A stretch of 64,000 bases of DNA from Blastococcus litoris (lineage in GTDB: Bacteria; Actinomycetota; Actinomycetes; Mycobacteriales; Geodermatophilaceae). The position numbers and the translations under genes are program-made. The number at the start of each line of letters is the position of its first letter. Position 1 is the stretch's first letter. Of this stretch, positions 5,979 to 37,925 are shown piece after piece. The notes beneath the pieces were generated by a model that made no database searches, was not told the DNA's origin, and was given only the letters and a program-made list of their open reading frames with translations. The DNA lies in assembly GCF_003075095.1 (NCBI RefSeq), contig NZ_QCZF01000005.1, forward strand, positions 186,001 through 250,000. Reading direction: 5' to 3'.

Positions 5979-6439
5979 CGAGTCCTCACTCCCGGCACGA
6001 GCCGGCGCGCTGTGGCGGCCGATCGGTCGGCATCGCCCGTGCTCGCGGCTGCATGTCGTTCGAGGCCCGTGTCATCCCATGGTTGCCCACGCGCGGACCG
6101 GAGCGCTCTGCGGAATCCGCGCAAGCCGAGCGGCTGCTTTCCGGAGGCCACAGAAACGCGTCAGCGGCCCGCACCCGGACGTACCCGCCCGGCGTCCGTC
6201 GCCGGCTCGGTCGCGGGTGCCGCCCCCGAGCGGCCTGCCATAGTGCGCAGCCGACTCGCGGAACGGAGTAGCACCGTTCCGGGCTGCATGGGTTGAGGAC
6301 CTCCCTGGGCCTGCGCAGTTGTGCACCTTCCGTAGGACATGGCCGTCGAATCTGCGGCACGTGCACTGTGGCCGCCGGCAGAGCCGCCCGAACACTGGCT
6401 TCGGGCGCAGCGCCTGGGTGCAGGAGGACCGCTGGTCAC
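5979..6439. other. Divergent promoter region, coxD operon / FAD oxidoreductase
   Basis: 460 bp between two divergent starts. It contains one exact copy of the recurrent element CTGCGGAATCCGNGCA (6108-6123). Reading frames through it show no family resemblance and look like noise. AGGAGG at 6422-6427 is the ribosome site of the forward gene, with a rather long 12-base spacer. Confidence 0.5.
6108..6123 (+). promoter_or_regulatory. Putative regulon operator, copy 1
   Basis: CTGCGGAATCCGCGCA. It differs from the copies at 9308 and 24417 only at the one variable position. The core CGGA-A-TCCG is a hyphenated palindrome, as expected for a dimeric regulator. It lies between the divergent coxD operon and the FAD oxidoreductase. 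Confidence 0.65.
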
Positions 6440-7866
6440 ATGAGCACAGACGGGACGAAGGTGGACGGAACTTTCGGGACGGGTATCCGACGGAGCCCCT
6501 GGCTCGCGGAGGCGCTGGCCGTCGAGCCTCCGACGGAGGGCACGGCCCTGAGGGGGCGGACGACCGCCGACGTGTGCATCGTCGGAGGCGGTTACACCGG
6601 TTTGTGGACGGCGCTGGAACTCAAGATCAGACGGCCGGACCTAGACGTTTGCCTGGTTGAGGCGGGGGTGTGCGGCAGCGGGGCCAGCGGCACCAACGCC
6701 GGCCTGCTGATGAATCTCTGGCCCAAGTTTCCCTCTCTGGAGGCGCTCGCGGGCCGGACCGAGGCCACCTGGCTGGCTCAGCAGTCGAGCAATGCCGTCG
6801 ACGATGTCATCGGGTTCTGTCGCGACCACGACATCGAGGCCCACATCGAACGACGCGGCTGGTTGTGGGCGTCGAGTGCTCCGGCCCAGGACGGCGCGTG
6901 GACCGAATCGCTGAACCTCGTCGAGGGGCTCGACGGTGCTCCCTTCCGGGTCCTCGACGGTGATACCGCCCGAGCCCTGGGGAGCACGGCGCTGCGTGGA
7001 GGGGTTCTCGACCCCACGTCGGCGACTCTTCAGCCGGCACTGCTCGTCCGGGGCCTGCGTCGGGTGGCGGTCGAGCGGTATGGGGTCCGGATCTACGAGC
7101 ACACCCCGATGAGGGCCACGGAGGAGCGGGGCAACTGCACCCACGTCGTCACATCGCACGGGCGGGTCGAGGCCGGCGCGGTCGTGCTGGCGATCAACGC
7201 CTGGATGAGTGCCTTCGCCCACGTCCGACGGACCATGGTGATGAGCGCCAGCGACAACGCCATCACCCGTCCGCTGCCGCCCGAGCTGCTCGCCGGCGCG
7301 GGAGACCCGGGACTGGGCGTCAGCGACTCGACCCGGATGCTGAACTACTGGCGCACCACTCGGGACGCGCGCGTCGTCTTCGGCAAGGGAGGGGTGGGGC
7401 TCGGATTCCGTCAGCACGGAGCACGGTCGATGTTCGGGCCGGTCCGACGCGACGCGATCATCCGGCGTAGTTCGACCGCCTCCTCCCAGCGCTGGCCGGG
7501 GAGGACTTCGCCGCGACCTGGCGGGCGCCGGTCGAGTACACCCTCACGTCGTTGCCCTACTTCCAGCAGCTGCCCGGTCGTAGCCGGGTGTGGTTCGGCA
7601 CCGGCTACTCCGGTGATGGTGTGGGCCCCAGCCGCATGGGAGGTCGGATCCTCGCCAGTCTGGTGCTCGGCGAGGACGACGAATGGTCGAACTGCGCCTT
7701 CACGCAACCGCCGCGCGGCTGGCTGCCGCCCGAACCGTTCCGGTTCCTGGGCGGCCAGGTGGTGAAGCACGCCATGATCAGCAAGGAGCGAGCGGAGAAC
7801 GACGGTCGGACGCCGGGCTCGGTCGTCGGCGCCCTGAGTCGCCTCGATCCGACGACCTGGGTCTGA
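6440..7866 (+). pseudogene. DAO-family FAD-dependent oxidoreductase with a frameshift
   Basis: Two adjacent frames together encode a protein of about 475 residues that parallels the intact gene at 40701-42110 along its length. Matching blocks are TADVCIVGGGYTGLWTALEL (FAD-binding GxGxxG), CGSGASGTNAG, ARVVFGKGG, and in the second frame PYFQQLPG, GYSGDGVGPSRMGGRI, EDDEWSN and WLPPEPFRFLGGQVV. The frame must change near 7466-7471: after ..DAIIRR the protein continues as FDRLLPALAGEDF only if one base is restored, and the continuing frame has a TAG at 7468. Either the gene is inactivated or there is a one-base sequence error. The family oxidises amines such as glutamylputrescine or sarcosine; a role in amine side-chain breakdown is inferred. 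Confidence 0.75.
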
Positions 7867-7934
7867 GCCGCGGCGGCCCCGGTCGCGGCGTTCCGCAGCG
7901 ACGTCCTCCGCTCACGGGCTCATCTCTCGGGCGC

Positions 7935-8981
7935 TCAGCCGCCGATGGCCGACATGGGCCGGGCCGGCTGGAGGAAGCTCGGGTCGTCGATGCCGTGGCC
8001 GGGCAGCTTCCCGAGGGTGGCGATCCGCCAGCGGTCGGCGATCTCGGCGTCGGTCGCGCCCTCGCGCATCGGCGTCCGCAGATCGGACTCCTCCCGCGCG
8101 AACAGGCAGTTGCGGACCTGGCCGTCGGCGGTGAGCCGCGTGCGGTCGCAGCTGCCGCAGAAGGAGCGGGTCACCGAGGCGATCACACCGACCGTGGCGG
8201 GTCCGCCATCGACCAGCCAGCGCTCGGCCGGTGCCGACCCGCGGGCCTCGGTGTCCGGCGTGAGCGTGTGCGCGGCCGACAGCCGCTCGAGGATGTCCTC
8301 GGCTGTCACCATCTCGCCCCGGGTCCACGCGTGGTGCGCGTCGAGCGGCATCTGCTCGATGAACCGGAGCTGGTAGCCGCGCTCCAGGCAGAAGTCGAGC
8401 AGCGGGACGGCGTCCTCCTCGTTCATCCCGCGCAGGAGGACGACGTTGACCTTGACCGGCGTCAGCCCGGCCGCCTGCGCCGCCGCGAGCCCGGCGAGGA
8501 CGTCGTCGAACCGGTCGCGGTGGGTGAGCTGCTTGAACCTGTCGCGGTCGACGGTGTCGAGGCTGACGTTGATCCGGTCCAGCCCGGCCGCGGCCAGCGC
8601 CGGGGCGACCCGCGCCAGGCCGATCGCGTTCGTGGTGAGGCTGACCTCCGGACGGGGCTCCAGGGCGGTGGCGCCCGCGACGATGCCGACCAGGCCCGGC
8701 CGCAGCAGCGGCTCCCCGCCGGTGAAACGGACCTCGCGGATGCCGAGCTGCTCCACCCCGATGCGCACCAGCCGGACGATCTCCTCGTCGGTCAGCACCT
8801 CGACCTTGGGCAGCCAGTCGAGCCCCTCGGGCGGCATGCAGTAGGTGCACCGGAGGTTGCAGCGGTCGGTCAGCGAGACGCGCAGGTCGGTGGCGACGCG
8901 GCCGTGCCGGTCGACCAGCCCGCCGCTGCCCGGCGCGGGCGCCGCGACGACCCGGCGCGCCACGGGCTCAGGCAACGTCAC
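7935..8981 (-). CDS. moaA: GTP 3',8-cyclase MoaA (molybdenum cofactor biosynthesis)
   Basis: A radical-SAM enzyme that converts GTP to 3',8-cyclo-GTP, the first step of molybdopterin synthesis. The radical-SAM cluster motif is CNLRCTYC (C41, C45, C48 from the chosen start), followed by FTGGEPLLR. The second cluster motif lies in the C-terminal part, CGSCDRTRLTADGQVRNC. The protein ends in the conserved Gly-Gly. I chose the GTG at 8981 (VTLPEPVARR), giving 348 residues, the family's usual size; the frame runs open further upstream but that part is not family-like. A cofactor gene inside this cluster fits the demand of the two molybdenum hydroxylases. Confidence 0.92.
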   Translation of the reverse strand: MTLPEPVARRVVAAPAPGSGGLVDRHGRVATDLRVSLTDRCNLRCTYCMPPEGLDWLPKVEVLTDEEIVRLVRIGVEQLGIREVRFTGGEPLLRPGLVGIVAGATALEPRPEVSLTTNAIGLARVAPALAAAGLDRINVSLDTVDRDRFKQLTHRDRFDDVLAGLAAAQAAGLTPVKVNVVLLRGMNEEDAVPLLDFCLERGYQLRFIEQMPLDAHHAWTRGEMVTAEDILERLSAAHTLTPDTEARGSAPAERWLVDGGPATVGVIASVTRSFCGSCDRTRLTADGQVRNCLFAREESDLRTPMREGATDAEIADRWRIATLGKLPGHGIDDPSFLQPARPMSAIGG

Positions 8982-9493
8982 TGCACATCCACGATGACAT
9001 CGTGCCCGAATTGCACGGGTCCCACCGTTCTCTCGAGGCGTGAGCAGGGTCCACACCAGTCTCCAGCGAGCGCCCGGCTCGTGCGTAGGCACAATCCCGT
9101 CAGCGGGTCGTGGAAGTTGCGGTGATCCGTCAACCCGCCGGGAGATGACGCGGTGCGGTCGGATACCACGATGAGGAGCGGTGGACCGACGAGGAGAGTC
9201 GTCGCCGGCCAACGCCCTGCGGCGGGAGCGGGTGGCGATCCCACGGGTCGAGTGAGCCGTGGCGGCTGGTACGCCATCGCCTCTATCCATCCGTGTCGAT
9301 CCGGTCCTGCTCGGATTCCGCAGCTAGACGGTTCCCTTTGTCGGTCCAGGGCAAGGCTTCGCGGTCGTGGATCTCGCGATACTGCTGGAGACACGCCTCG
9401 GATCCGGTGACGCCCTGCCGACACACAGCGCGCCAGCCGGGACGGTGCCGCGTGACACCACCTGTGGCGACATGTGTTCTGGAGAGGGCTCTC
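8982..9493. other. Divergent intergenic region, moaA / dihydroxypseudooxynicotine hydrolase
   Basis: About 510 bp with no supported gene. It contains an exact copy of the recurrent 16-bp element on the minus strand at 9308-9323. GGAGAGG at 9481-9487 is the ribosome site for the forward GTG start at 9494. Long frames crossing this region lack any family similarity. Confidence 0.5.
9308..9323 (-). promoter_or_regulatory. Putative regulon operator, copy 2
   Basis: On the minus strand it reads CTGCGGAATCCGAGCA, identical to copies 1 and 3 except at the variable thirteenth base. It lies 171 bp upstream of the hydrolase start at 9494. Confidence 0.65.
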
Positions 9494-10570
9494 GTGACCA
9501 ACAACAGCGGTACTGCTGCGCTGCAGCCGGAGCAGGAGATGCTCAACTGGGGACGGCTCATCCTGGATGGCGTGCCGTACGCCGATCTGGTGAGCGCCCG
9601 TGACCGCGACCCGTCCGTGACGTGGTTCGACCACTGGATGGAGACGGCCGCGAACTACGAGCGGCTCGGCGAGGAGGCGCAGGCCGCCGGTCACACGATC
9701 ACCGCCGGCGAGTACTTCGTCCTCGGTTCGCTCGCGGCGCAGTACGCCCAGTTCCTCTGGTTCGACGACCGTCGTCGTGTCGGCCAGGAGCGCAAGGTGG
9801 AGCTCTACCGCCGTGCTGCGCCGCTGCTCAACCCGCCGGCCGAGCGCTTCGAGCTGACGGTGGACGGCGCCACCGTTCCCGGTTTCGTCCGCGTGCCCGC
9901 GGTCGGAAGCGGCCCTTACCCGACCGCCGTCCTGCTCGGCGGTCTGGAGTCCACCAAGGAGGAGAGCTACCAGTTCGAGCAGCAGCTCCTGGCGCGGGGC
10001 ATCGCCACGGTCACCTTCGACGGGCCGGGGCAGGGCGAGATGTTCCCGGAGGTCCCGCTGCGCGGTGACTACGAGCGGTACACCTCCGCGGTCGTCGACT
10101 ACGCCGAGAAGCTGCCGGAGGTCGACGCCTCGCGGATCGGGGTCGTCGGTCGCAGCCTCGGCGGGCACTACGCGCTGCGCAGCGCCGCCCTCGACCAGCG
10201 CTTCGTCGCCTGCATCTCCTGGGGTGGCTTCGCCGACATGGACTCCTACGACGACGAGACGCCGATGACGAAGGAGAGCTGGAAGTACGTGACCGCCTCG
10301 TCCACGCACGAGGAGGCACGCGAGCGGGTCACGAGGCTCATGGACGTCCGGTCGGAGCTCCACAAGCTCCGCGTCCCGACGTACATCCAGCACGGCATGC
10401 ATGACGAGGTCCCGGTGAGCGAGGTCGACGTGGTCAAGCAGCTGGCCGTCGACGCACCGCTGACCATCGTCATCGAGCCCGACGGTGACCACTGCTGCCA
10501 CAACCTCGGGCCGCGCCCCCGCTTCGAGATGATCGACTGGCTGGAGGAGCAGCTCAAGCCGCGCCCCTGA
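9494..10570 (+). CDS. dhponh: 2,6-dihydroxypseudooxynicotine hydrolase-like alpha/beta hydrolase
   Basis: 358 residues from a GTG with a GGAGAGG ribosome site. The fold is an alpha/beta hydrolase preceded by a helical domain (about residues 1-110), as in the Arthrobacter enzyme that cleaves the C-C bond of 2,6-dihydroxypseudooxynicotine to 2,6-dihydroxypyridine and 4-methylaminobutanoate. The nucleophile elbow is VVGRSLGGHY (Ser221), with Asp304 in HDEVP and His333 in DGDHCCHN. These lie at a constant +4 offset from the triad I recall for the Arthrobacter enzyme (Ser217, Asp300, His329). I could not place the extra active-site glutamate reported there. The product enzymes are present in the window (27432 and 43118), which supports the assignment. 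It could still act on a related diketone. Confidence 0.82.
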   Translation: MTNNSGTAALQPEQEMLNWGRLILDGVPYADLVSARDRDPSVTWFDHWMETAANYERLGEEAQAAGHTITAGEYFVLGSLAAQYAQFLWFDDRRRVGQERKVELYRRAAPLLNPPAERFELTVDGATVPGFVRVPAVGSGPYPTAVLLGGLESTKEESYQFEQQLLARGIATVTFDGPGQGEMFPEVPLRGDYERYTSAVVDYAEKLPEVDASRIGVVGRSLGGHYALRSAALDQRFVACISWGGFADMDSYDDETPMTKESWKYVTASSTHEEARERVTRLMDVRSELHKLRVPTYIQHGMHDEVPVSEVDVVKQLAVDAPLTIVIEPDGDHCCHNLGPRPRFEMIDWLEEQLKPRP

Positions 10571-10628: not shown

Positions 10629-10862
10629 TTTCGGCATGTCCGGCCTGAACGGCGGCAGGTGAGCTCGTCATTCGCGGAGAGCACCGTCCGCTGGGGCCGG
10701 TGTTGCCCTCGGTCATCCGCGCTGCGACTGCCCGCCTGCGGGATCGGAAGAAAAGCCTCCCGCGCTTGTCGCCTGCTGTGTACTTCGACACATCGGTGCG
10801 CCTGCACGCTTCTCGCCAACGAGGTCACGGACTGAGTGACCACCGCGAGAAGGAGAGCTGAC

Positions 10863-15900: not shown

Positions 15901-18333
15901 TCAGTCCCCGGCGGTGGGGGACTCCCCGAGGTGGATGTCGAGCGCGCTCGTGTCGGATGACGCACCCTCCTGCGCGGCCGTCTGCTCCCGGCCGGCCACG
16001 GCGTCACGAGCCATCCCGAAGAGGGCTTGGGGGTGCACGGGCACCCGTCGCACGCGGAACTCGCCACCGAGCGCGTCGTCGATGGCGCCGGCGACGGCGG
16101 CACCGACCGCGATGAGCCCGACCTCCCCGAGTCCCTTGGCACCGAACGGGTTGTTGGGAGTCGGTGCGTCCTCGGTGATGAAGTAGTCGACGCGTGGCAT
16201 GACGTCAGCGGTGGGGAGCAGATAGTCCATGAACGACGTCGCCAGCGGCTGACCGGCCTCGTCGTACAGGAACTCCTCGAAGAGGGCGCCCCCGATGCCC
16301 TGCGCCGCGGCGCCGATGATCTGCCCCTCGGTGGTGAGCCGGTTGATCACCTTGCCGGCCTCCGTGCTGACGAAGAACTTCCGGATCGTGTGGCTGCCCG
16401 TGGTCGGGTCCACCTCCATCTGCACCAGCGTGATCCCGTAGGGGTAGTTCATGTGGTCGTCGAGGTAGACGGCGTCGGCACCGAGCCCGGGCTCCTTGCC
16501 GGCCAGCCGGGCGGAGTAGTTGTCGAATCGCTGCGCGATCTCGGTCAAGGTCAGGGACATTCCCGGTGTCCCCACCACCTGGACCTTCCCGTCGCGCAGC
16601 TCGAGGTCGGAGACGTCGACCTCGAGCATCTCGCTGGCGAGCTCGAGCGCCTTGTCGCGCGTCTTGATCGCGGCGAGGCGGGCGGCGCCACCGGCCAGGA
16701 CGGTGGACCGGCTCGACCAGGAACCGACGCCGTCCGGGATGAGGTCCGTGTCGCCGTGAAGCACGTCGATGATGTCCGGCTCGATGCCGAGCTGGTCGGC
16801 GACGATCTGGGCCAGGATGGTCTCCACGCCCTGGCCCACGTTCGAGGCGCCCGTCAGCACGCGGACGCGTCCGGTCTCGTCCACCTCGACCGATCCGGTC
16901 TCGTACAGGCCGAGACCAGCCTTGTCCATGAGCAGCCCGACACCGTTGCCGACGAGGCGCCCCTGGGCCCGCAGCTCCTCCGCCTCGGCGCGCCAGGCAT
17001 CGAAGTCGGCAGCCACGAGCGCCTTCTGCACGTGGTCGAGCACGTCCCCGGAGTTGAACGAGTAAGGCTCGAACGCGATCTCGATGCCCGGCTCGTAGGG
17101 GAGGTCGGCGGCAGTCAGGAGATTGCGGAGCCGGAGCTCCACGGGGTCCATGCCGATCTCGGAAGCGGCGAGGTCGAGGAGCCGTTCGCGGGCGAAGGTC
17201 CCTTCGAAGCGGCCCGGTGCCCGGTAGGCGGCCAAGGGTGTCTTGTTCGTCAGCACGGCGTGCAGATCCACGTCGTACGCGGGAACCCGGTAGGGGCCGA
17301 TGATCATGCCGGCCGTGATGTCGCTGACCAGGGGCTCGGCCTGGCGCATGAATGCACCGTGGTTGTGCCAGACCTCGTCTCGGAGCGCGAGGATCCTGCC
17401 CTCGGCGTCGAAGGCGCCCGAGATGCGGTGGACCTGCTCTCGCGCGTGCGCGATGCCGACCATGTGCTCGACCCGGTCCTCGATCCACTTCACCGGCCGC
17501 CCAAGGAGCTGGGCGGCGTGCGCGACGAGGACGTACTCCGGGAAGGCACCGCCCTTGACGCCGAAGTTGCCGCCGACGTCCGTGTGGCGCATGCGCATGC
17601 TGCTCTGCGGCATTCCCAGCATCTTGGCCATGACCCGGCGGGAGTCGTGCACGTGGACGGGGCCCCACATCCACAGCTCCTTGCGCGCGGGGATCGGCTC
17701 GACGATGCAGCCGCGGGTCTCCATCGGGATCCCAGTGTGGCGACCGACCACGAACTCCCCGGACACCACGTGGGCCGCCTGCGCGAAGGCGGTCTCGACG
17801 TCGCCGTACTGCTTGAGGAACCTCGCTGGCTCGTTCCCTCCCGGGAGCAGGTGCGTGCTCGACGTCGCCGCCTCGACCGGGTCGAGGAGGACCGGGAGCT
17901 CCTCGTAGTCGACGCTCACGAGCTCGGCCGCGTCCTCGGCCAGGTACGGGTCCTCGGCGATGACGGCGGCGACCGGCTGGCCCACGTAGAGCACCTTGTC
18001 CACGGCGAGCAGGGGATGCCCGAACTCGTCGATCCGGGGAAACATCTCGTGGTAGCCGATCTCCTCGATGGGGATCAGGCCGAGGTGGCGGACGTCCTCG
18101 CCGGTCAGCACCAACCGGACACCCGGTAGCGCCCGAGCCGCCTCCGTGTCGATCGCGAGGATCCTCGCGTGGGCCATCGTGGCGCGGACGACCCGCATCG
18201 ACAGGCCGCCGGCCACCTCGACGTCGTCGACGAAGATGCCCTGACCGCGCAGGAGGCGGCGGTCCTCGATCCGTGGTGTGCGGCCGCCGACGTGCTTGGC
18301 CTCTGGCGCACGGCTGGAGCTGGTGACGGTCAT
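15901..18333 (-). CDS. Molybdenum hydroxylase large subunit (CoxL/XdhB type), set A
   Basis: 810 residues from the ATG at 18333. N-terminal domain ~20-130 (GGRTPRIEDRRLLRGQGIFVDD), then the molybdopterin-binding region with VGGNFGVKGG (about 254), active-site loop AYRAPGRFEG (about 371) and the C-terminal GLGEVGLI carrying the catalytic glutamate (about 734). Such subunits hydroxylate N-heterocycles with water as oxygen source, working with FAD and 2Fe-2S subunits. No such partners are next to it; the nearest unpaired medium and small subunits are at 24607-25985. Being divergent from the 6-hydroxynicotine oxidase suggests nicotine 6-hydroxylase, but ketone dehydrogenase is equally possible. 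Confidence 0.88.
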   Translation of the reverse strand: MTVTSSSRAPEAKHVGGRTPRIEDRRLLRGQGIFVDDVEVAGGLSMRVVRATMAHARILAIDTEAARALPGVRLVLTGEDVRHLGLIPIEEIGYHEMFPRIDEFGHPLLAVDKVLYVGQPVAAVIAEDPYLAEDAAELVSVDYEELPVLLDPVEAATSSTHLLPGGNEPARFLKQYGDVETAFAQAAHVVSGEFVVGRHTGIPMETRGCIVEPIPARKELWMWGPVHVHDSRRVMAKMLGMPQSSMRMRHTDVGGNFGVKGGAFPEYVLVAHAAQLLGRPVKWIEDRVEHMVGIAHAREQVHRISGAFDAEGRILALRDEVWHNHGAFMRQAEPLVSDITAGMIIGPYRVPAYDVDLHAVLTNKTPLAAYRAPGRFEGTFARERLLDLAASEIGMDPVELRLRNLLTAADLPYEPGIEIAFEPYSFNSGDVLDHVQKALVAADFDAWRAEAEELRAQGRLVGNGVGLLMDKAGLGLYETGSVEVDETGRVRVLTGASNVGQGVETILAQIVADQLGIEPDIIDVLHGDTDLIPDGVGSWSSRSTVLAGGAARLAAIKTRDKALELASEMLEVDVSDLELRDGKVQVVGTPGMSLTLTEIAQRFDNYSARLAGKEPGLGADAVYLDDHMNYPYGITLVQMEVDPTTGSHTIRKFFVSTEAGKVINRLTTEGQIIGAAAQGIGGALFEEFLYDEAGQPLATSFMDYLLPTADVMPRVDYFITEDAPTPNNPFGAKGLGEVGLIAVGAAVAGAIDDALGGEFRVRRVPVHPQALFGMARDAVAGREQTAAQEGASSDTSALDIHLGESPTAGD

Positions 18334-18733
18334 GCGGGGTGTCGACCTTCCGCTTCGTGGGGTGGAGCACAGTATCGAGCCGCCGGAGTGCGCCTCCTTG
18401 CTCGGAATCCGAAGGTCGAGTCGCTGGATTGCCCGCAGACGACAACAGGGTGAACTCCCACCGACTCCGCACCGCGCGCGAACGGTGCGTCCGGGGGCCC
18501 CGCCCAGTTTGGCCACTCCGCTGGCTCCCGTCGTCCGTGGCCGGCGTGAACGGTGGAACCTGCGGTCCAGCGGAGTACATGGATGGACAAACCGATCTGT
18601 CACTTCTGCTGATCCGAGACATTCCGCAGGGTGCGCGGGTCCGGATACTCCACAGCAGTCGCCGCGGGGGAGCCCGGGACGCCGTTCCTCGCTGACACCA
18701 GCGGTCCGCTGCACCTGTTCGAAGGAGAGCCGA
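18334..18733. other. Divergent promoter region, hydroxylase large subunit / 6-hydroxynicotine oxidase
   Basis: 400 bp with no supported gene. It holds a near copy of the recurrent element at 18399-18414 (66 bp from the hydroxylase start) and a half-copy, ATTCCGCAG, at 18621-18629 (105 bp from the oxidase start). This arrangement suits joint control of both divergent genes. Confidence 0.5.
18399..18414 (-). promoter_or_regulatory. Putative regulon operator, diverged copy
   Basis: Reads CTTCGGATTCCGAGCA on the minus strand, 14 of 16 positions shared with copy 2. The CGGA-W-TCCG core is kept. Confidence 0.55.
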
Positions 18734-20059
18734 GTGGCATACGACGTCATCGTTGTCGGTGGAGGGTTCGCCGGCCTCCGGGCCGCGCGCGATCTCGCAG
18801 CAGCGGGCTCCTCCGTGGTCCTCTTCGAGGGCGGGGATCGCCTCGGCGGCCGTGCCTACACCCGCGCCTCCCAGCTGTTCCCCGAGATCCAGGTCGAGAT
18901 CGGCGGTACGTACCTGGAGCGGCACCACCACCCGCGGTTGGCCGGTGAGCTCGATCGCTACGGGGTGGCCACGGCCCCAGCCCCGGAGGTCAGCGTCTTC
19001 CGCAACCGCCTCGGACCGGGCGACCACGACAGTGCCTTCCCCATCCCGGGGGAGGAGGCCGCAGCCGTCGAGACGGGCCTATACCGGATGCTCCGCGACG
19101 CTCATCGCATCGACATCACTGCAGGGCTGGAGAACCAGGGTCTCGACGATCTCGACATCCCGCTCACCGACTACGTCGACACGCTGGGCCTCGGACCCGT
19201 GGCCAGGCAGCTCGTCCTCTCCTGGAGCTGGAACATGCTGGGACAGCATCCTTCGAAGTCCTCGGCGCTGTGGGCGCTCCAGCAGATCGCCTCCCACGGA
19301 TACAGCGTGCTCGGCGTCGTCCTCTCGCTCGACGAAGTCGTCCCTGCCGGCATGAACCAGCTGGTGGCCGCCATGGCCGCCGATGTCCCGGAGGTCGTCC
19401 TCGGAGCGCGGGTGACCTCCGTCGACCGGCAGGACGACGGGTCCTACGACGTGGTGGTCGAGCGCGGCGGCGAACGAGAGCACCACCGCGCTGCGCACGT
19501 GGTGATCGCGACACCGTTCAACACGTGGCGGAACATCACGCTGGACCCGCCGCTCCCATCGGTCCGCGCTGATGAGGTGGCACGAGGGCATGCGTGCAGG
19601 GGACTCAAGCTGATCGTCCACGTCACGGGCGTGCCCGAGGGGCTGTCGTGCACCGGGGACGGCGTCTTCCCGACCGTGTACGACTACATGGCGACCCCGG
19701 ACGGAGGGCGGTTCCTGGTCGCCTTCACCGACTCCGAGTCATTCGATCCGACCGATCTGGGAGCGGTCGCCGCTGCGATCCACCACTACGTGCCCGAGGC
19801 AGTCGTGCACGGCGTCGAGTACCACGACTGGGCGGCCGATCCGCTGTTCGGCGGCCCTTGGGTTTCCCCGTACGTCGGTCAGTTCAGCCGGATCCACAAG
19901 GGTCTCGGTGAGCCGCACGGCAAGGTGTACTTCATCGGGTCGGACGTCTCGCTGCAGTTCCCCGGCTACATCGAGGGAGCGCTGGAGACCGCTGACGTCG
20001 CCGTGACCCGCGTCCTGGGCATCTCCCCGGAACGGCCTGCTGTCGCGGCCCACGTCTGA
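18734..20059 (+). CDS. 6hlno: 6-hydroxynicotine oxidase-like FAD amine oxidase
   Basis: 441 residues from GTG 18734 (GAAGGAG ribosome site). Flavin amine oxidase fold: FAD motif VVGGGFAGLRAARDL, then GGDRLGGRAYT. Long stretches resemble the Arthrobacter 6-hydroxy-L-nicotine oxidase as I recall it: VEIGGTYLERHHHPRLAGEL, LRDAHRID, LDDLDIPL, WNMLGQ, SILGVVLSLDE-like, FTDSESFDPTD, YHDWAADPLF and FPGYIEGALETA. That enzyme oxidises the pyrrolidine ring of 6-hydroxynicotine, and the product hydrolyses to 6-hydroxypseudooxynicotine. The length is also close (Arthrobacter about 425). Stereospecificity cannot be read. It is followed by the TMADH-like gene, 119 bp downstream. Confidence 0.88.
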   Translation: MAYDVIVVGGGFAGLRAARDLAAAGSSVVLFEGGDRLGGRAYTRASQLFPEIQVEIGGTYLERHHHPRLAGELDRYGVATAPAPEVSVFRNRLGPGDHDSAFPIPGEEAAAVETGLYRMLRDAHRIDITAGLENQGLDDLDIPLTDYVDTLGLGPVARQLVLSWSWNMLGQHPSKSSALWALQQIASHGYSVLGVVLSLDEVVPAGMNQLVAAMAADVPEVVLGARVTSVDRQDDGSYDVVVERGGEREHHRAAHVVIATPFNTWRNITLDPPLPSVRADEVARGHACRGLKLIVHVTGVPEGLSCTGDGVFPTVYDYMATPDGGRFLVAFTDSESFDPTDLGAVAAAIHHYVPEAVVHGVEYHDWAADPLFGGPWVSPYVGQFSRIHKGLGEPHGKVYFIGSDVSLQFPGYIEGALETADVAVTRVLGISPERPAVAAHV

Positions 20060-23159: not shown

Positions 23160-24411
23160 GCGAGACACTCGTAGGCTTCAGCGCGTGACACTCGAGGACG
23201 ACCTGCGCATCCTGGCTGACGGGGTCCGGGAACGACTACCCGCGCTCGCCACGAAGATCGCGCGGCGATTGCGGGAGGAGATCCCGGAGTTCTACCTGCG
23301 CGACGATCCCGTCCTCAGGGCCGCGGAGAGCGAGACGATTACGACCTCGGTCCGGGACATCCTCGACGGCATGACGGAGGAGCGACCTCCGCCCGAGCAG
23401 GCGTCCGACACGCGCCTCCGGGAGGCTCGCCTCGCGGCCCAGGCCGACGTCGACCTCCATGCCCTCCTGCGCACGTCCCGGGTCGGCCAGGCCCTGACCT
23501 GGGACTGCATCCTGGAGGTCGCGGACGAACTGATCCCCGACTCCGCACGGCGGCTACCCGTCCTGCGGCATGTGAGCCAGTACCACTTCGCCTGGAACGA
23601 CCGGGTCACGGCTTCGATCATCGAGGCCTACCAGCGGGAGTACCACGCGTTCTACATGCAAGGGCGTGACCGCAAGCGCCGTGCTCTGGTCCGGGATCTC
23701 CTCGCCGGCATCCCCGTCGACGAGGCCGCTCTCGGATACGCCATGCGTGGCCGGCACCTGGGTGTGATCGCCTGGGGCGCGGAACCGGAAGCGACCATCA
23801 AGAAGGCCGCCACCGCGCTCGGCTGGCAGTCACTGAGCGTCTCCGGAGCGGCCGGCACGGTCGTCGGGTGGCTGGGTCGGCCGAGCACTAGGACGACCGA
23901 CGACAGCGACCTCAGCGCGGTCGAGGTGCCGCGGGAGACGTACCTAGCAGTCGGCCAGTACGCGAACGACGTCGAGGGGATGCAGCGGACCTACCGTCAG
24001 GCCTGGCAGGCCTACCGGGTCGCACGGATCCACCCGCAGCCGCTGACCCGTTACAGCACGATCGCCTTGGAGGCTCTGGTGCTGCGGGATCTACCAGCGG
24101 TCCGTGACTTCATCGTCGAACAACTGGGGCCGCTGTACGGCAAGGACGAGCGCGCCAAGGTCCTCCGGGAAACCCTGCGCGCCTACTTCGCCAGCGGGCA
24201 GAACGCCGCAGCGACGGCCTCGGTGATCGGCGTGCACGAACGTACGGTGGCCTATCGCCTCCGGTCCGCGGAGAAGGTGCTGGAGCGGTCGATCGCCACC
24301 GCGAGGGACGAACTCTCGATCGCACTGCGCATGTACGTCCTGCTGCAGGAGGACGAGCGGACGGACCTGGCAACACTGGAGGACCAGGTCCTCGGTCCTG
24401 CTCCGCTGTGA
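23152..24411 (+). CDS. PucR-family transcriptional regulator
   Basis: 419 residues. No N-terminal PucR sensor signature, but a helical N-terminal region (about 1-160), a middle GGDEF-like segment (about 160-290) and the C-terminal helix-turn-helix YFASGQNAAATASVIGVHER (about 345-395). It is paralogous to the truncated regulator at the window start. The start overlaps the SDR gene by 8 bp; an alternative GTG lies a few codons downstream. The exact copy of the recurrent 16-bp element begins 6 bases after its stop, in front of the next hydroxylase operon. This makes the protein the leading candidate for the factor binding that element, an inference from position only. Confidence 0.85.
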   Translation: MSERDTRRLQRVTLEDDLRILADGVRERLPALATKIARRLREEIPEFYLRDDPVLRAAESETITTSVRDILDGMTEERPPPEQASDTRLREARLAAQADVDLHALLRTSRVGQALTWDCILEVADELIPDSARRLPVLRHVSQYHFAWNDRVTASIIEAYQREYHAFYMQGRDRKRRALVRDLLAGIPVDEAALGYAMRGRHLGVIAWGAEPEATIKKAATALGWQSLSVSGAAGTVVGWLGRPSTRTTDDSDLSAVEVPRETYLAVGQYANDVEGMQRTYRQAWQAYRVARIHPQPLTRYSTIALEALVLRDLPAVRDFIVEQLGPLYGKDERAKVLRETLRAYFASGQNAAATASVIGVHERTVAYRLRSAEKVLERSIATARDELSIALRMYVLLQEDERTDLATLEDQVLGPAPL

Positions 24412-24416
24412 TTCCT

Positions 24417-24432
24417 CTGCGGAATCCGGGCA
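24417..24432 (+). promoter_or_regulatory. Putative regulon operator, copy 3
   Basis: CTGCGGAATCCGGGCA, identical to copies 1 and 2 except at the variable base. It lies 175 bp upstream of the FAD subunit gene. A further half-site, ATTCCGCA, follows at 24500-24507. Confidence 0.65.
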
Positions 24433-24599: not shown

Positions 24600-24606
24600 C
24601 GCGGTC

Positions 24607-25497
24607 GTGAAGCCCCCGTTGTTCGATTACGAGGCGCCGTCCACGGTGGAGGACGCAGCCCGGCTGCTCGCGGAGGGTGGCGAGGACGCGAAGCTCCTGG
24701 CAGGCGGTCAGAGCCTGATCCCTCTGCTCAACCTCCGGTTCGCGGCGCCGTCCCTGCTGATCGACCTGAACGGTGTCGACGGACTCGGACAGATCCGGGC
24801 CGAGGACGGGCAGCTGAGGCTGGGTGCGCTGGTGCGGCACAGCACGGTGGCCGGCGACCCGCTCGTGGCAGACCGGCATCCGCTGCTGAGCGAAGCGATG
24901 GGCTACGTCGCCCACCCCCAGATCCGCAACCGGGGAACGATCGGCGGCACGACCGCGCACGCGGACCCCGCTGCAGAGGTCCCGGTGGTGCTGCTGATGA
25001 GTGACGCGCGGGTCGTCGCCCGCTCCACGCGTGGACGACGGGAGATCGGGGTCGACGACCTCTTCGTCTCGATCTTCACGACCAGCCTCGAGCCGGACGA
25101 GATCATCAGCGAGGTGATCATCCCGGATCGTGCGGTGGAACCCGGCACGGCCGTCGGTTCCTCTTTCCAGGAGTTCGCCCGCCGGCACGGCGACTACGCA
25201 ATCGGCGGGGCCGCTGCGATCGTCCACCTCGGCCCCGACGGCGTGTGCCGTTCGGCACGGGTCGGCCTGCTCGGGGCCGGGATGCGACCGGAGGAGTCGC
25301 GCGCTGCAGCGGCAGTGCTCGAGAGCGGCACCTTCTCGGAAAGGGCCGCGCGGGAGGCGGCAGCAGTGGCAACGACGGACATCAGCCCCCTGGGCAACGT
25401 GCACGGCGACCCGGACTACCGGCGCGAGGTCATCCGGGAGATGACCTTCCGCGCCGTCATGACGGCAGCCGACAAGGCGAAGGCGAGGATCGCGTGA
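24607..25497 (+). CDS. Molybdenum hydroxylase FAD subunit (CoxM type), set A
   Basis: 296 residues from GTG 24607 (VKPPLFDYEAPST, the usual CoxM beginning). FAD-binding motifs are LAGGQSLIPLLNLR and RNRGTIGGTTAHADP. The subunit passes electrons from the 2Fe-2S subunit to an acceptor. A GTGA overlap joins it to the small subunit, but no large subunit follows; the likely partner is encoded at 15901-18333. The start itself has a poor ribosome site and follows a 12-codon ORF with a very good one. This is nicotine 6-hydroxylase or ketone dehydrogenase by context. Confidence 0.88.
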   Translation: MKPPLFDYEAPSTVEDAARLLAEGGEDAKLLAGGQSLIPLLNLRFAAPSLLIDLNGVDGLGQIRAEDGQLRLGALVRHSTVAGDPLVADRHPLLSEAMGYVAHPQIRNRGTIGGTTAHADPAAEVPVVLLMSDARVVARSTRGRREIGVDDLFVSIFTTSLEPDEIISEVIIPDRAVEPGTAVGSSFQEFARRHGDYAIGGAAAIVHLGPDGVCRSARVGLLGAGMRPEESRAAAAVLESGTFSERAAREAAAVATTDISPLGNVHGDPDYRREVIREMTFRAVMTAADKAKARIA

Positions 25498-25985: not shown

Positions 25986-26011
25986 CCAGGAGCCATCGTC
26001 TGATCCCCACG

Positions 26012-28643: not shown

Positions 28644-28686
28644 CCGCGGCCCCCCGCAACTCCCTACGAGAGGTAAGTGCCTGATC

Positions 28687-30209: not shown

Positions 30210-30228
30210 ACGAGGACCACCCTGACGC

Positions 30229-30264
30229 CCGGCGCCGGAGGCGCGTGCCGCCCTCCGGCGCCGG
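30229..30264. terminator. Terminator hairpin after the omega-amidase
   Basis: Perfect 13-bp arms CCGGCGCCGGAGG / CCTCCGGCGCCGG with a 10-base loop, 20 bases after the stop. Confidence 0.75.
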
Positions 30265-30310
30265 TGAGCCCTGCCGCCCGTGCGCACCGCGGGTGGCCCA
30301 CGGGCCGGTT

Positions 30311-30324
30311 TGCCGGATTCCGAG
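30311..30324 (-). promoter_or_regulatory. Putative regulon operator, diverged copy
   Basis: TGCCGGATTCCGAG keeps the full CGGA-T-TCCG core and the flanking TGC shifted by one base. It lies 113 bp upstream of the set B hydroxylase operon. Confidence 0.45.
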
Positions 30325-30436
30325 TGATGAGGGGCACAGATGCCCGTCTTCCGTACGCCGACGTGTGCATCGCCGCACCTAGTGTCGGGCTTCCGGGCCT
30401 GACGGTCACGCGTCGCCGCCCTCTGGAGGTGTCTGA

Positions 30437-31291
30437 GTGAAGTCCCCTGTTTTCGCCTATGCCGCGCCCGACAACGTGGCAGAGGCCTGCCGCCTGCTCG
30501 CCGAGGACGAGGACGCGAAGATCCTCGCCGGAGGGCAGAGCCTGGTCCCGCTGCTCGCGCTGCGTCTGGCGGCACCGACCACGCTGGTCGACCTGCGTCG
30601 CGTGCCGGGGCTCACGGGCATCGAGCATGAGGCCGGTGCTCTGCGGCTGGGAGCGATGACGACACACCGTGGCATCGAGCGATCTCCGGTCGTCCGGGAC
30701 GTCGCGCCGGCGATCGCCGCGGCGGCGTCACTGATCGCCCATCCCCAGGTCCGGACCCGCGGGACCATCGGGGGTGCGGTCGCCCACGCCGACGCCGCGG
30801 CCGAGTGGCCCGCTGTGCTGCTCGCCCTGGGTGGGCACGTGGAGGTCACCGGAGTCGGCGGTGACCGCACGATCTCCGCCGACGACCTGTTCCAGGGACC
30901 GTTCATGACGTCCCTGGAGCCGGACGAAGTGATCACCTCCGTGCTGCTGCCCGTCAACGGGCGCCAGATCTGGGTCGGTGAGCACCACCGCCGTCACGGC
31001 GACTACGGGCTGTCTGTGATGGCCATGACCTATCGGCAGGACGGTGGGGTGCTCACCGACGTCCGCCTCGCCGTCGCGGGGGCAACCGGCAGCGTCACCC
31101 GCGCCCCCGACACCGAAGCGGCTCTGGAGGGACGCACGCCCGCGGACGGGGACGGCGCCGTCGCGGCGCTCGCCGGCGAGCTGTCCTACACCGCCGACAT
31201 CCACGGCTCGGCCGACTACCGGCGAGACATCACCACCACACTGTTCCAGCGCGCCCTGCGGGCCGCGGGGGAGAGGTCCGGTCAGGCATGA
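30437..31291 (+). CDS. Molybdenum hydroxylase FAD subunit (CoxM type), set B
   Basis: 284 residues from GTG 30437 with ribosome site GGAGGTG. FAD motifs LAGGQSLVPLLALR and RTRGTIGGAVAHADAAAE. First gene of a complete FAD/2Fe-2S/Mo operon, each gene overlapping the next by 4 bp. Located after the dihydroxypyridine hydroxylase and omega-amidase genes, it may be the 6-hydroxypseudooxynicotine (ketone) dehydrogenase, but nicotine 6-hydroxylase cannot be excluded. Confidence 0.9.
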   Translation: MKSPVFAYAAPDNVAEACRLLAEDEDAKILAGGQSLVPLLALRLAAPTTLVDLRRVPGLTGIEHEAGALRLGAMTTHRGIERSPVVRDVAPAIAAAASLIAHPQVRTRGTIGGAVAHADAAAEWPAVLLALGGHVEVTGVGGDRTISADDLFQGPFMTSLEPDEVITSVLLPVNGRQIWVGEHHRRHGDYGLSVMAMTYRQDGGVLTDVRLAVAGATGSVTRAPDTEAALEGRTPADGDGAVAALAGELSYTADIHGSADYRRDITTTLFQRALRAAGERSGQA

Positions 31292-31770
31292 CGCAACCAT
31301 CCGAGCAGGTCTCCGTCGAGGTCGAAGTCAACGGACGCGGCTACCGGCGCAGCGTCATGGCACGGATGACGCTCGCCGACTTCATCCGGGACGAGCTCGC
31401 GCTGACCGGCACCAAGGTCGGCTGTGAGCACGGCGTCTGCGGCGCCTGCACCGTCCTGGTCGACGACGAACCAGCCCGGTCCTGTCTCATGCTCGCCGTC
31501 CAGGCCGACGGCCGCCGGATCCGGACGGTGGAGAGCCTGGCGAACGGGCGGTCGATGAACCCCCTCCAGGAGTGCTTCCAGAAGCACCACGCCCTGCAGT
31601 GCGGCTTCTGCACGGCCGGCTTCCTCATGAGCGCCACGGCCCTGCTGGAGGAGGGGCAGCCCACGCGGGAGGACATCGTCGAGACGCTCTCCGGCCACTA
31701 CTGCCGGTGCACCGGTTACGCCCCGATCATCGATGCGGTTGAAGAGGCCGCGGCCAAGGAGCGGTCATGA
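31288..31770 (+). CDS. Molybdenum hydroxylase 2Fe-2S subunit (CoxS type), set B
   Basis: 160 residues with the eight cysteine ligands C46, C51, C54, C66 and C105, C108, C139, C141. The ATG overlaps the FAD subunit stop and the stop overlaps the large subunit ATG, which secures equal synthesis. About two thirds of the core matches the set A small subunit by eye, so the two sets descend from a duplication or related sources. Confidence 0.93.
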   Translation: MTQPSEQVSVEVEVNGRGYRRSVMARMTLADFIRDELALTGTKVGCEHGVCGACTVLVDDEPARSCLMLAVQADGRRIRTVESLANGRSMNPLQECFQKHHALQCGFCTAGFLMSATALLEEGQPTREDIVETLSGHYCRCTGYAPIIDAVEEAAAKERS

Positions 31771-34127
31771 GCTTCGCGCACAGCGAGTCCCCCTCGATCG
31801 CCGCTCGGAGCATCGGCGCCCGCGTCCCGCGGGGGGATGATCCGCGTCTGCTGACCGGTCGCGGCCAGTACCTCGCGGACATCGTGCTGCCCGGTGAACT
31901 GCACGCGTGCTTCGTCCGGAGTTCGGCCGCGCACGCCCGCATCGCCGCGGTGGAAGTCGAGGACGCTCGTGCGCTGGACGGTGTCGTCGCGGTGTGGACT
32001 GGGGAGGACGCCGCGAAGTTCTGCGAGGGGATCGTCGGCGAACTCGAAGTCGAGGGGTGCGTCGCCACGACCATGCCGTTGCTGGCGCGCGACGTCGTCC
32101 GTTACGTGGGCGAGCCGGTCGCGGTCGTCGTCGCGGAGAGCCGGTACGTGGCCGAGGACGGCTGCGACCTCGTCGACGTGGACTACGAGCCCCTCGAGCC
32201 CGTTCTGGACCCTCGGTCGGCACTCCGGGGTGGGCCCGCCGCCAACGAGGAGCTCCCCGACAACGTCGCCTTGCGGGGAGGCAGGGTCCTCGGGGACGTC
32301 GAGGCTGCGTTCGCCGGCGCAGCCCGCGTCGTGGAGGCGACCTTCCACAGCGGCCGCCTGTCCGCGGGGCCCATGGAGACCCGGGGAGTCATCGCCGACT
32401 ACGACTGGACCAGCCGGCGTCTGCGCCTGTGGACGTGCTCGCAGATGCCGCACTACGTCAAGTACTGCCTGACCGCGTACCTCGGCTTCCCCGAGAACGA
32501 GTGCGAGGTGCTGACCCCGGACACCGGTGGCGGGTTCGGGCAGAAGGCCCACGTCTTCCCGGAGGAGATGCTCCTACCGCTGCTGGCCCGGGAGCTGGAC
32601 CGGCCGGTGAAGTGGGTCGAGGACCGGCGCGAGAACCTCATGACCGCGACGCATGCGCACGAGCAGTTCGTCGACATCGCCTACGCCTTCGACGCCGATG
32701 CGAAGGCGACAGCCGTGCGGATCCGCGCCACAGGGGACGGTGGGGCCTACCACCAGCCACCGTGGTCCATGGGCGTCGAGCCGTGGTGCACGGCGATGGT
32801 CACGCCGACCGGCGTCTACGACATCCCCGTCGCGGATCTCACGTACGAGGCTGCCGCGACCAATAAGACCCCGATCGGGGCCTACCGGGGAGTCGGGTAC
32901 ATGGCGGGCACGCTCGTCCGCGAGTGCCTGATGGACGACGCCGCCCGCGCGTTCGACCTCTCTCCGTTCGAGATCCGCCGGCGCAGCGTGGTGCGCGAGT
33001 TCCCGTGGACGAATCCGCAGGGGATCGTGTACGACGAGGGCAGCTGGCTGCAGACGATCGACGAGCTCGAGAGCATGGTCGACTACCCGGCGTTCCGCCA
33101 GCGCCAGGCGGCGCTCCGTGCTGAGGGCCGGTTCATTGGCCTCGGTCTGAGCGTCTTCGTGGAGAGCAGCGGCGAGAGCACCGCGATGGGCAAGGCGCAC
33201 GATCTGGGGGGCGTCTACCACGACACCGCCACGGTGAAGATGGAACCCAACGGCAGCGTGACCGTCACCATCGGCCTCACCACCCAGGGGCAGGGGCACC
33301 GCACGACGATGGCGCAGGTCGTCTCGGACGCCCTGGGCGTCCCGCTAGAGGCGATCACCGTCCGAGCCGCCGAGTCCACCACCTACGGCTGGGGGAGCGG
33401 CACCGTGGGGAGCCGGGGCGCGGTCATCGCCGGCGGAGCAGTCCTCCGCGCGTCGCACACCATCCGCACCAAGCTCGTCGCGCTCGCGGCGAACATGCTG
33501 GAGGCGGACCCGTCGGACATCGATCTGGTGGACGGAGCGGCCGTCGTGCGCGGTGTGCCGGGATCCTCCGTCTCCATCATCGACCTCGCCACCGCCGTCT
33601 ACTTCGACCAGACTTCGTGGCCGGAGGACTTCGATCCCACGCTCGAGGCGACGCTCGCCTACGACCCGGCCCGGCCGATCTTCTCCAACGGCGGCCACGC
33701 CATGATCGTGGAGCTGGACCCGGACAACGGGTTCGTGACTGTGGAGAAGGTCTTCTCGGTCGAGGACTGCGGAACGGTGATCAACCCCGACATCGTCGAG
33801 GGCCAGATCCGGGGCGGCGTGGTGCAGGGCATCGGGGCCGCCCTGCTCGAGCGGCTGGTCTACGACGACGCCGGCCAGCTGGTCACGACCACCCTCCTCG
33901 ACTACCACATGCCGAGCATGGACTTCTCGCCGCCGTTCGAGATCCACCACCTGGAGACCCCGTCCTCGCACACCCCCGGAGGCATCAAGGGGATGGGGGA
34001 GTCCGGCCTCATCGCGGCGCCGGCCGCCGTGCTGAACGCCGTCAACGACGCCCTGTCCCACACCGGCATCGTGCTGCACGACATCCCCGTCACGCCGGAG
34101 CAGGTGCTGCGCGCCCTGCGCTCGTGA
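31767..34127 (+). CDS. Molybdenum hydroxylase large subunit (CoxL/XdhB type), set B
   Basis: 786 residues. N-terminal GARVPRGDDPRLLTGRGQYLAD, molybdopterin motif DTGGGFGQKAH (about 252), active-site loop GAYRGVGYM (about 370) and catalytic-glutamate motif GMGESGLI (about 742). The loop differs from set A (AYRAPGRFEG), suggesting different substrates. Complete operon with its FAD and 2Fe-2S subunits. In the nicotine pathway the two reactions needing this enzyme type are hydroxylation of nicotine at C6 and of 6-hydroxypseudooxynicotine at C2; assignment between sets is open. Confidence 0.92.
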   Translation: MSFAHSESPSIAARSIGARVPRGDDPRLLTGRGQYLADIVLPGELHACFVRSSAAHARIAAVEVEDARALDGVVAVWTGEDAAKFCEGIVGELEVEGCVATTMPLLARDVVRYVGEPVAVVVAESRYVAEDGCDLVDVDYEPLEPVLDPRSALRGGPAANEELPDNVALRGGRVLGDVEAAFAGAARVVEATFHSGRLSAGPMETRGVIADYDWTSRRLRLWTCSQMPHYVKYCLTAYLGFPENECEVLTPDTGGGFGQKAHVFPEEMLLPLLARELDRPVKWVEDRRENLMTATHAHEQFVDIAYAFDADAKATAVRIRATGDGGAYHQPPWSMGVEPWCTAMVTPTGVYDIPVADLTYEAAATNKTPIGAYRGVGYMAGTLVRECLMDDAARAFDLSPFEIRRRSVVREFPWTNPQGIVYDEGSWLQTIDELESMVDYPAFRQRQAALRAEGRFIGLGLSVFVESSGESTAMGKAHDLGGVYHDTATVKMEPNGSVTVTIGLTTQGQGHRTTMAQVVSDALGVPLEAITVRAAESTTYGWGSGTVGSRGAVIAGGAVLRASHTIRTKLVALAANMLEADPSDIDLVDGAAVVRGVPGSSVSIIDLATAVYFDQTSWPEDFDPTLEATLAYDPARPIFSNGGHAMIVELDPDNGFVTVEKVFSVEDCGTVINPDIVEGQIRGGVVQGIGAALLERLVYDDAGQLVTTTLLDYHMPSMDFSPPFEIHHLETPSSHTPGGIKGMGESGLIAAPAAVLNAVNDALSHTGIVLHDIPVTPEQVLRALRS

Positions 34128-34128
34128 G

Positions 34129-36874: not shown

Positions 36875-37095
36875 CCGGGCAGGATGGGAGTTCGGGACAG
36901 GGCGGTCGGTCACCCAGCTGCAGGGCCTCGTCAGGTCGCTGACGGTATGCGACACGGGCCCCACGTGCCGAAGGCATTTGCTCTGGCGGCCCGATGCGCC
37001 TACCGGCGATGAGCCCTACGCGCTCCGTGCTGCTGAGGCGGTCGCACATCCGCACCCTTCGTGCGCCTGCGCGGTCCTGGCGTGAGGCTGCCTGG

Positions 37096-37425
37096 TCAGA
37101 CCTCGCGATGGGCGCCGAGCTCGAGTGCCAGCACCCCGACGACGATCAGTCCCATCCCGAGCAGTTGCACGGTGGTGAGCCGCTCGCCCAGGAAGACCGC
37201 ACCGATCACGGCGATCGACACGATGGCGACGGCGGACCACAGGGCGTAGACGACCGCCACCTCGAACCCGCGCTGCAAGACCAACGACAGCAGGAAGAAG
37301 GAGACCCCATACCCGCCCAGCACCAGGAGGCTCGGCACGAGCCGGCTGAAGCCCTCGGTGGCCCTCAGTGACAAAGTCGCCATGATCTCGACGGCGATCG
37401 CCAGTGCCAGCAAACCGTACGTCAT
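37096..37425 (-). CDS. SMR-family small multidrug efflux protein
   Basis: 109 residues with four hydrophobic helices and the SMR membrane-embedded glutamate (MTYGLLALAIAVEIMATLSL, Glu13). The position matches Glu14 of EmrE, which favours the ATG at 37425 over the GTG at 37437. The WSAVAIVSIAVIGAVFLGE block is also typical. SMR proteins export cations by proton antiport. In Arthrobacter the SMR pair NepAB exports nicotine breakdown products; here only one subunit is present, so it would act as a homodimer or with a partner elsewhere. Confidence 0.88.
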   Translation of the reverse strand: MTYGLLALAIAVEIMATLSLRATEGFSRLVPSLLVLGGYGVSFFLLSLVLQRGFEVAVVYALWSAVAIVSIAVIGAVFLGERLTTVQLLGMGLIVVGVLALELGAHREV

Positions 37426-37925
37426 CAAGCCCGTCACCCAGCCTCCGCTCCGTGTCAGCCCACGCGTCCCGCTGTGGCCCGGCCGTATGGCTCGCTGTCC
37501 GAGCCGGTTCCCGCCCTTCGCCGCTCGGAGCGAGGTCCGCGTGTGCGTCGTGCGCACCGCTTCAACACTTGCCGAGCACTGCCAGGTGGCTCTCCCGCAG
37601 GCGCGAGATGCCACCGGCCAACCGTCCCCCGTCTGGCCGTACGACGGCATGCCGGAATCCGGCAGACAGCGCTCCCGTCTAGTCCATGTCAGGCAATGAC
37701 CGGCCTCCCTTCGCCTCGCTAGTGTCCGAGGGCCCGACGATCTCTTCACCTGTGGATCCACCGGGTCTCGTGGCGCTTGCTCCTCGGGGGAGACCAAGAA
37801 CGTTCGATCGAGAGCCGATCGGTACAGGCAGATCCCTCCGTGGAGGTCAGCCGGTCGGCCCTCGCAACAGTGGCATCGGCCTCCGGACGACCGTCCGGAC
37901 AGCCGTCTCTTCACAGGAGGTCGTC
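37426..37925. other. Divergent promoter region, SMR pump / dehydrogenase
   Basis: 500 bp without a supported gene. Its main feature is the perfect palindrome at 37650-37664 that contains the regulon core. AGGAGG at 37915-37920 is the ribosome site for the GTG at 37926. Confidence 0.5.
37650..37664. promoter_or_regulatory. Perfect palindrome with the regulon core
   Basis: TGCCGGAATCCGGCA is fully palindromic about a central A and contains CGGAATCCG, the core of the element at 6108, 9308 and 24417. It lies 225 bp from the SMR start and 262 bp from the dehydrogenase start. Confidence 0.5.

Follow-up and report, generated by a model that had tools for sequence, protein, structure and literature searches.

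Six intergenic copies of an inverted repeat in a nicotine-type gene cluster of Blastococcus litoris, a predicted operator of a local PucR-type regulator

The catabolic operons of one gene cluster in Blastococcus litoris are dispersed, and the question is whether a single regulator controls them through a shared site. The cluster lies in a window (the whole stretch analysed here) of 64,000 nucleotides on contig NZ_QCZF01000005.1, in a genome of 4.63 megabase pairs (Mb), and judged by the similarity of its genes it is a pyridine-pathway nicotine cluster. The unit common to six of its intergenic sites is a palindrome of 9 base pairs (bp), CGGAWTCCG, an inverted repeat made of two CGGA half-sites around one central A/T (W). 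With moderate confidence, we believe that the six intergenic copies are the predicted operator of a local regulator of the cluster. This regulator is most likely the protein PucR1, and it would probably be an activator.

An earlier note on this DNA had described the element as 16 bp long. The 16-mer CTGCGGAATCCGNGCA was found as three exact matches at 6108 (+), 9308 (-) and 24417 (+) (sites 1, 2 and 4, which differ only at N), and the diverged copies proposed at 18399, 30311 and 37650 were also found (site 3 with 2 mismatches; sites 5 and 6 with cores at 30314 and 37653). The wording "near-invariant" is right for the first three copies only, since all six share just the 9-bp core and weaker flanks. 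In nine centre-aligned sites (six from the window and three from Klenkia brasiliensis), CGGA-W-TCC is invariant and the last core base is G in eight; in the flanks, T stands at -6 in seven of the nine and G at +6 in eight. Sites 1-3 lie between divergent genes. The distance from the core centre to the start codon is 137 bp for coxD, 178 bp for pnh, 74 bp for kdhL, 119 bp for ndhM, 269 bp for the gene at 37926 and 120-183 bp for kdhM, whose start is uncertain; the remaining divergent genes start 325-353 bp from the core centre. Some gene starts were picked by eye, and these distances depend on them. The core described in a coding region near 7402 is present. Half-sites ATTCCGCA are also present at 18621 and 24500, but both are missing from the Klenkia counterparts and were rejected as parts of the system; TGCGGAAT occurs five times in the window, two of them outside full sites. 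The sites had further been placed before catabolic, cofactor-maturation or transport genes, and the transport part of this description did not hold, as neither the permease at 1051 nor the transporter at 10836 has a core directly in front of it.

The genome scan found the exact 16-mer at sites 1, 2 and 4 and nowhere else in the 4.63 Mb. The core occurs 26 times in the genome, and seven of these lie within 6111-37661, that is, in 31.5 kilobase pairs (kb) or 0.7% of the genome. At the rate outside the window, 0.13 cores would be expected in this interval (P = 1.2e-10, or about 3e-7 when all intervals of the same size are roughly allowed for). Such enrichment at the promoters of the cluster relative to the rest of the genome is what a regulon calls for. 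A de novo search for 9-bp palindromes in 13 intergenic stretches returned CGGAnTCCG, with sites 1-6 as its six best sites and a likelihood of 20.7, compared with 12.7-17.2 in eight shuffled controls; the stretches were hand-picked, and the data had 80 random starts against 30 per control, which somewhat favours the data. It is extremely improbable that the copies arose by chance or form a repeat without a regulatory role, such as a mobile repeat or a restriction or uptake signal. The window alone contains ten matches with at most three mismatches, only about twofold above the shuffle mean of 4.58, and 3 of 100 shuffles reach ten, a weak excess that would suit this explanation. The crowding of the cores, six of the seven non-coding, speaks against it, as do flanks that are not repeated as in a mobile element and the partial conservation in Klenkia.

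The placement of the cores was evaluated with a coding score, taken as the best local value within 75 bp either side of the core. The score was negative at all six sites, in agreement with the claim that they are intergenic, and the core at 7402 scored +0.19, close to the lowest of the gene controls, which ranged from 0.18 to 0.53. Among the 19 cores outside the window, 11 scored at least 0.19 and 8 scored at most 0.08, 4 of these being negative, so some outside cores could be real sites. The exact 16-mer has six copies in 112 genomes of the family, five in nicotine clusters and the sixth inside an open frame. Its three carriers are B. litoris (three copies), a genome matching Blastococcus saxobsidens (G822; two copies, in the nicotine cluster) and a genome with a single copy, which falls within a frame of 442 codons.

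These counts bear on the idea that, to bind the element, the cluster recruited a regulator whose gene lies elsewhere in the genome, for example a global nitrogen, carbon or other factor. We consider this quite improbable. The outside cores with low coding scores would fit it, and so would distant clusters that have a near-identical PucR recognition helix and lack the element. However, a global regulator should have more non-coding sites, and the 16-mer is almost confined in the family to genomes with a nicotine cluster. In addition, 6/6 intergenic sites of the window have GCA on one or both sides, at most four bases from the core, whereas 0/19 outside cores have it and the one at 7402 has none; the feature was picked post hoc, with the sites already inspected, and the three K. 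brasiliensis sites do not have it.

By pnh, named relatives are B. saxobsidens 67B17 (98%), K. brasiliensis (92%) and Klenkia terrae (91%), and K. brasiliensis (G769) belongs to the family of the window. All six sites are kept in B. saxobsidens, where site 1 differs only at the central W and site 6 reads TGCCGGAATCCGACA, with one flank change; this retention says little because the DNA is nearly identical to that of the window. The informative comparison is with Klenkia, whose intergenic identity to the window is 55-68% in four regions. The 9-bp core before Klenkia ndhM (site 5) is identical. Before pnh (site 2), the core is kept in both species with the central A/T switched, and before kdhM (site 4), CTGCGGAATCC is kept, with eight of nine core bases and the last core G changed. 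Since only the central A/T switches at site 1 of B. saxobsidens and before Klenkia pnh, the palindrome stays intact there. K. brasiliensis and K. terrae have 10 and 13 cores genome-wide, two of each lying before pnh and ndhM at places equivalent to those in the window; the two species are not independent of each other. When the core was ranked among all 9-column segments of the alignments between the window and K. brasiliensis, it stood out for ndhM (4/223 as good) and kdhM (11/126). The data indicate that dispersed operons have in common an element with few copies in the rest of the genome and partial conservation in Klenkia, and to this extent the single regulon put forward in the earlier note stands; the regulator assigned to it is a prediction.

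The regulator gene said to adjoin the copy at 24417 is pucR1, which ends 5 bases before site 4. PucR1 has a C-terminal HTH_30 domain (PF13556, residues 338-392, E = 2.6e-13) and a GGDEF-like domain (PF17853, E = 3.1e-7). The N-terminal PucR domain (PF07905) was not reported for it at E 1e-5 and is present in the protein encoded at 39116; the name PucR-type thus rests, for PucR1, on HTH_30 and the GGDEF-like domain and does not mean membership of PF07905. Besides these two proteins, no other regulator-type DNA-binding domain was found among 40 window proteins (Pfam, E 1e-5; small frames and the last 8 kb lay outside the scan). PucR1 is 99% identical to its counterpart in B. saxobsidens and 81% in Klenkia, where the element is found, and 36-49% identical to the aligned proteins of Flexivirga, Leekyejoonella, Amycolatopsis and plasmid pAO1. 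As far as these identities tell, the element and PucR1 go together across clusters. A phmmer search of PucR1 against solved structures gave one match, to a photosystem protein (E = 0.72), which was taken as chance.

We propose that the six copies would serve as operator sites of one local regulator. PucR1, the most likely binder, would bind as a dimer or higher oligomer through HTH_30, possibly sharing the sites with a 70% identical paralog, and would probably activate transcription on nicotine or a pathway intermediate. Activation is probably the mode, rather than repression. A hexamer resembling a -10 element starts at +62 from the core centre for pnh (GATACT) and ndhM (TAGTGT) and at +63 for the gene at 37926 (TAGTGT), and kdhM has a poorer one, CAGTGT, at 63. 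Such hexamers also lie at 31 and 33 before kdhL and at 31 before coxD, and both Klenkia species have one at +62 for pnh and ndhM. From this spacing the operator would be near -73, and near -43 for kdhL, which are the usual positions for activators in the literature on CRP. Activation may thus occur from about -73 at pnh, ndhM, the gene at 37926 and perhaps kdhM, and perhaps from about -43 at kdhL. A sigma-70 scan of 30200-30440 found no promoter.

The proposed circuit can be compared with known systems. Most of the PucR-type regulators characterised are activators, and the binding sites of GabR, AdeR and PutR are inverted repeats of 17-24 bp (PMC7652997); CGGAWTCCG and the 15-bp palindrome of site 6 share this inverted-repeat form. 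The family is named by PF07905, and about half of it has a GGDEF-like domain (PMC7652997). GabR of Corynebacterium glutamicum, the activator of gabTDP, is, like PucR1, an actinobacterial PucR-type protein with local catabolic targets beside the regulator, and its inverted-repeat operators lie upstream of the promoter (PMC7652997); the comparison concerns their form. It differs in having two 21-bp inverted repeats at one promoter, whereas here one element of 15-16 bp with a 9-bp core is found in six intergenic regions, and it is without the GGDEF-like domain that PucR1 has (PMC7652997). AdeR and PutR of Bacillus subtilis are PucR-type activators with inverted repeats of 24 bp and 17 bp, respectively, and a GGDEF-like domain as in PucR1, but their targets and phylum are other, and they too are likened by description, not by operator letters (PMC7652997). 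The tetramethylpyrazine promoter of PMC6099782 belongs to a LuxR-type regulator.

The following results weigh against control by PucR1 as proposed. In Klenkia, the core between kdhL and the 6-hydroxynicotine oxidase gene is broken, though the genes are 85-86% identical, and in the 9-column comparison the core did not stand out for this region (164/403 as good) or for pnh (62/213). No -10-like hexamer was found at such spacing before Klenkia kdhM, and in the window the spacing is shared by 3/9 directed promoters (P = 0.085 in shuffles, 0.025 with random anchors), so it is a weak hint only. The B. subtilis PucR site is reported as non-palindromic in PMC7652997. Fourteen clusters other than that of the window were compared, including two plasmids and several near-duplicates, and three had cores. 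The core was missing from the stretches read of all 11 nicotine-type clusters outside the family, pAO1 included; the expectation that homologous nicotine clusters would keep the element was therefore borne out in part by the two Klenkia clusters and failed in the 11 distant ones. Flexivirga, Leekyejoonella and Amycolatopsis lack it in the cluster despite 60, 47 and 486 cores genome-wide, respectively, and more than 10 kb separate the one core in a larger Amycolatopsis stretch from the closest nicotine gene found. The presumed recognition helix, which we placed from the HTH_30 match and general knowledge of the family, reads HERTVAYRLRS in the window, in Flexivirga and in one pAO1 protein, and HSRTIAYRLKL in the other pAO1 protein. 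Clusters that lack the element thus have almost this helix too, so that either changes in another part of the protein altered its specificity or the binder is a different protein. Finally, the 70% paralog and the PmfR-like protein at 39116-40654 are encoded nearby as well, and the 20 kb adjoining the window on its left, upstream of the paralog, contain no core.

One of these two PucR-family proteins of the island could bind the element, PucR1 then having other sites, although we regard this as unlikely. Their genes lie no more than about 40 kb from the sites; an HTH_30 domain is present in the 39116 protein, and the paralog, also present in B. saxobsidens, aligns with PucR1 over the whole HTH region. 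Site 6 lies upstream of the 39116 gene. This protein is a relative of PmfR, the activator in the pAO1 nicotine cluster of Paenarthrobacter nicotinovorans, whose reported target is the purU-mabO-folD operon (PMC3891541), with 30% identity and 205 bits against an NCBIfam PmfR cut-off of 800. However, the Klenkia clusters keep the element, yet searches of K. brasiliensis (E 1e-30) and K. terrae (E 1e-10) returned no second PucR1-like match, and the best Klenkia match to the 39116 protein in the stretches compared is only 29% identical. PucR1 is the binder that we favour.

The pAO1 cluster encodes the same pathway, with genes 44-75% identical to those of the window, and has two relatives of PucR1 next to kdhAB. 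The 41 kb read contain no CGGAWTCCG, and palindrome searches of 16 stretches at widths 9, 13, 15 and 17 gave likelihoods within the range of eight shuffled controls; a motif common with pAO1 was rejected on this result. A doubtful extension, offered tentatively, is that the PucR clade of nicotine clusters keeps nearly one helix (HERTVAYRLRS) while its operator is respelled between lineages, as CGGAWTCCG in Geodermatophilaceae and otherwise in clusters of the pAO1 type. If this were true, the regulator-operator code of a mobile catabolic island would be private to it and leave the host genome almost untouched, and one could follow in this clade, as a natural series, how the operators of the family change.

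The operator had been called undescribed, and we likewise found no description of it in the open-licence literature, which mostly leaves out subscription journals. In the same literature, we met no report of an operator for those PucR-type regulators that are encoded next to kdh in nicotine clusters, and no paper was found on nicotine degradation in Blastococcus or Geodermatophilaceae (Klenkia was not asked for). What is new is the operator sequence. The kind is known, as a local catabolic regulon under a PucR-type regulator is ordinary bacterial control. If bound as proposed, CGGAWTCCG would be a compact, testable switch for a pyridine-pathway cluster, would add an operator to a family with few known, and may be of use as part of a nicotine-responsive promoter.

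The naming of the cluster follows the identity of its proteins to pAO1: cyclase 75%, NdhL 64%, KdhL and KdhS 63% each, 6-hydroxynicotine oxidase and Pnh 60% each, XdhC and 2,6-dihydroxypyridine hydroxylase 58% each, CoxD 55% and Nit 44%. The features are listed in Table 1.

Table 1. Sites, genes and candidate regulators in the window (FAD, flavin adenine dinucleotide; NAD, nicotinamide adenine dinucleotide)
Feature	Position	Strand	Remarks
Site 1	6108..6123	+	CTGCGGAATCCGCGCA; between coxD (-) and FAD oxidoreductase (+)
Site 2	9308..9323	-	CTGCGGAATCCGAGCA; between moaA (-) and pnh (+)
Site 3	18399..18414	-	CTTCGGATTCCGAGCA; between kdhL (-) and 6-hydroxynicotine oxidase (+)
Site 4	24417..24432	+	CTGCGGAATCCGGGCA; between pucR1 and kdhM
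Site 5	30311..30326	+	TGCCGGATTCCGAGTG; core at 30314; before ndhM
Site 6	37650..37664	+	TGCCGGAATCCGGCA; 15-bp palindrome around one central base; core at 37653; before NAD-binding dehydrogenase
Coding core	7402..7410	+	CGGATTCCG; inside FAD oxidoreductase coding region; not counted as operator
pucR1, PucR-type regulator, proposed binder	23152..24411	+	GGDEF-like and HTH_30 domains
pucR1' (3' part), 70% identical paralog	1..729	+	whole match G000:C5:185497-186726
pucR2, PmfR-like PucR regulator, rival binder	39116..40654	+	PucR and HTH_30 domains
coxD-like AAA ATPase	5055..5978	-	first of maturation genes coxD-coxE-xdhC (2773-5978)
FAD-dependent oxidoreductase (DAO)	6440..7765	+	start picked by eye from ribosome-binding site
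moaA, molybdenum cofactor synthesis	7935..8963	-	start approximate
pnh, 2,6-dihydroxypseudooxynicotine hydrolase	9494..10570	+	60% to pAO1
kdhL, ketone dehydrogenase large subunit	15901..18333	-	62-63% to pAO1, 85% to Klenkia
6-hydroxynicotine oxidase	18734..20059	+	60% to pAO1, 86% to Klenkia
kdhM, ketone dehydrogenase FAD subunit	24607..25497	+	start 24544, 24571 or 24607; then kdhS
ndhM-ndhS-ndhL, nicotine dehydrogenase	30437..34127	+	50-64% to pAO1
NAD-binding dehydrogenase	37926..38801	+	downstream of site 6; start picked by eye from ribosome-binding site

A long open reading frame upstream of moaA (8963-9290) matches B. saxobsidens in two frames, with the switch near residue 81; because of this change of frame, moaA probably starts near 8963 and not at 9290. 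At 10836-14625, next to a glutathione transferase-like gene, the cluster includes a sugar-type ATP-binding cassette transporter by its domains (substrate-binding protein, ATPase and permease), whose counterpart is absent from the annotated features of the 41-kb pAO1 stretch. The region 39116-45895 encodes the PmfR-like regulator, a DAO-family oxidoreductase and a 925-residue FAD/aminomethyltransferase protein that is 41% identical to the FAD oxidoreductase at the edge of the pAO1 locus. These genes suggest that a methylaminobutyrate branch is also present. In an Actinobacteria metagenome-assembled genome (L076 10001-11022), the match of pnh is split into two segments, which a stop separates in the assembled contig.

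An integrative element of 115 kb probably carries the nicotine cluster. A phage-type integrase gene at 52751-54346 (+) abuts a transfer RNA (tRNA) gene, tRNA-Leu (gag), at 54460-54545 (-). A 96% copy of the last 26 bases of this tRNA, with unchanged orientation, lies about 115 kb further left on the contig (G000:C5:125380-125405), and the G+C content rises from about 0.69 to 0.74 to the right of tRNA-Leu. A nicotine cluster with its own control circuit would thus lie on a probable genomic island in the family of Klenkia and B. saxobsidens. Seven cluster proteins, KdhM, KdhS, cyclase, CoxG, Nit, NdhM and NdhS (within 24544-31770 of the window; contig L089-L092), are 100% identical to those of B. 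saxobsidens 67B17, and G822 is placed in another genus than the genome of the window. Because the seven proteins are identical across genera, a recent transfer between genera is suggested.

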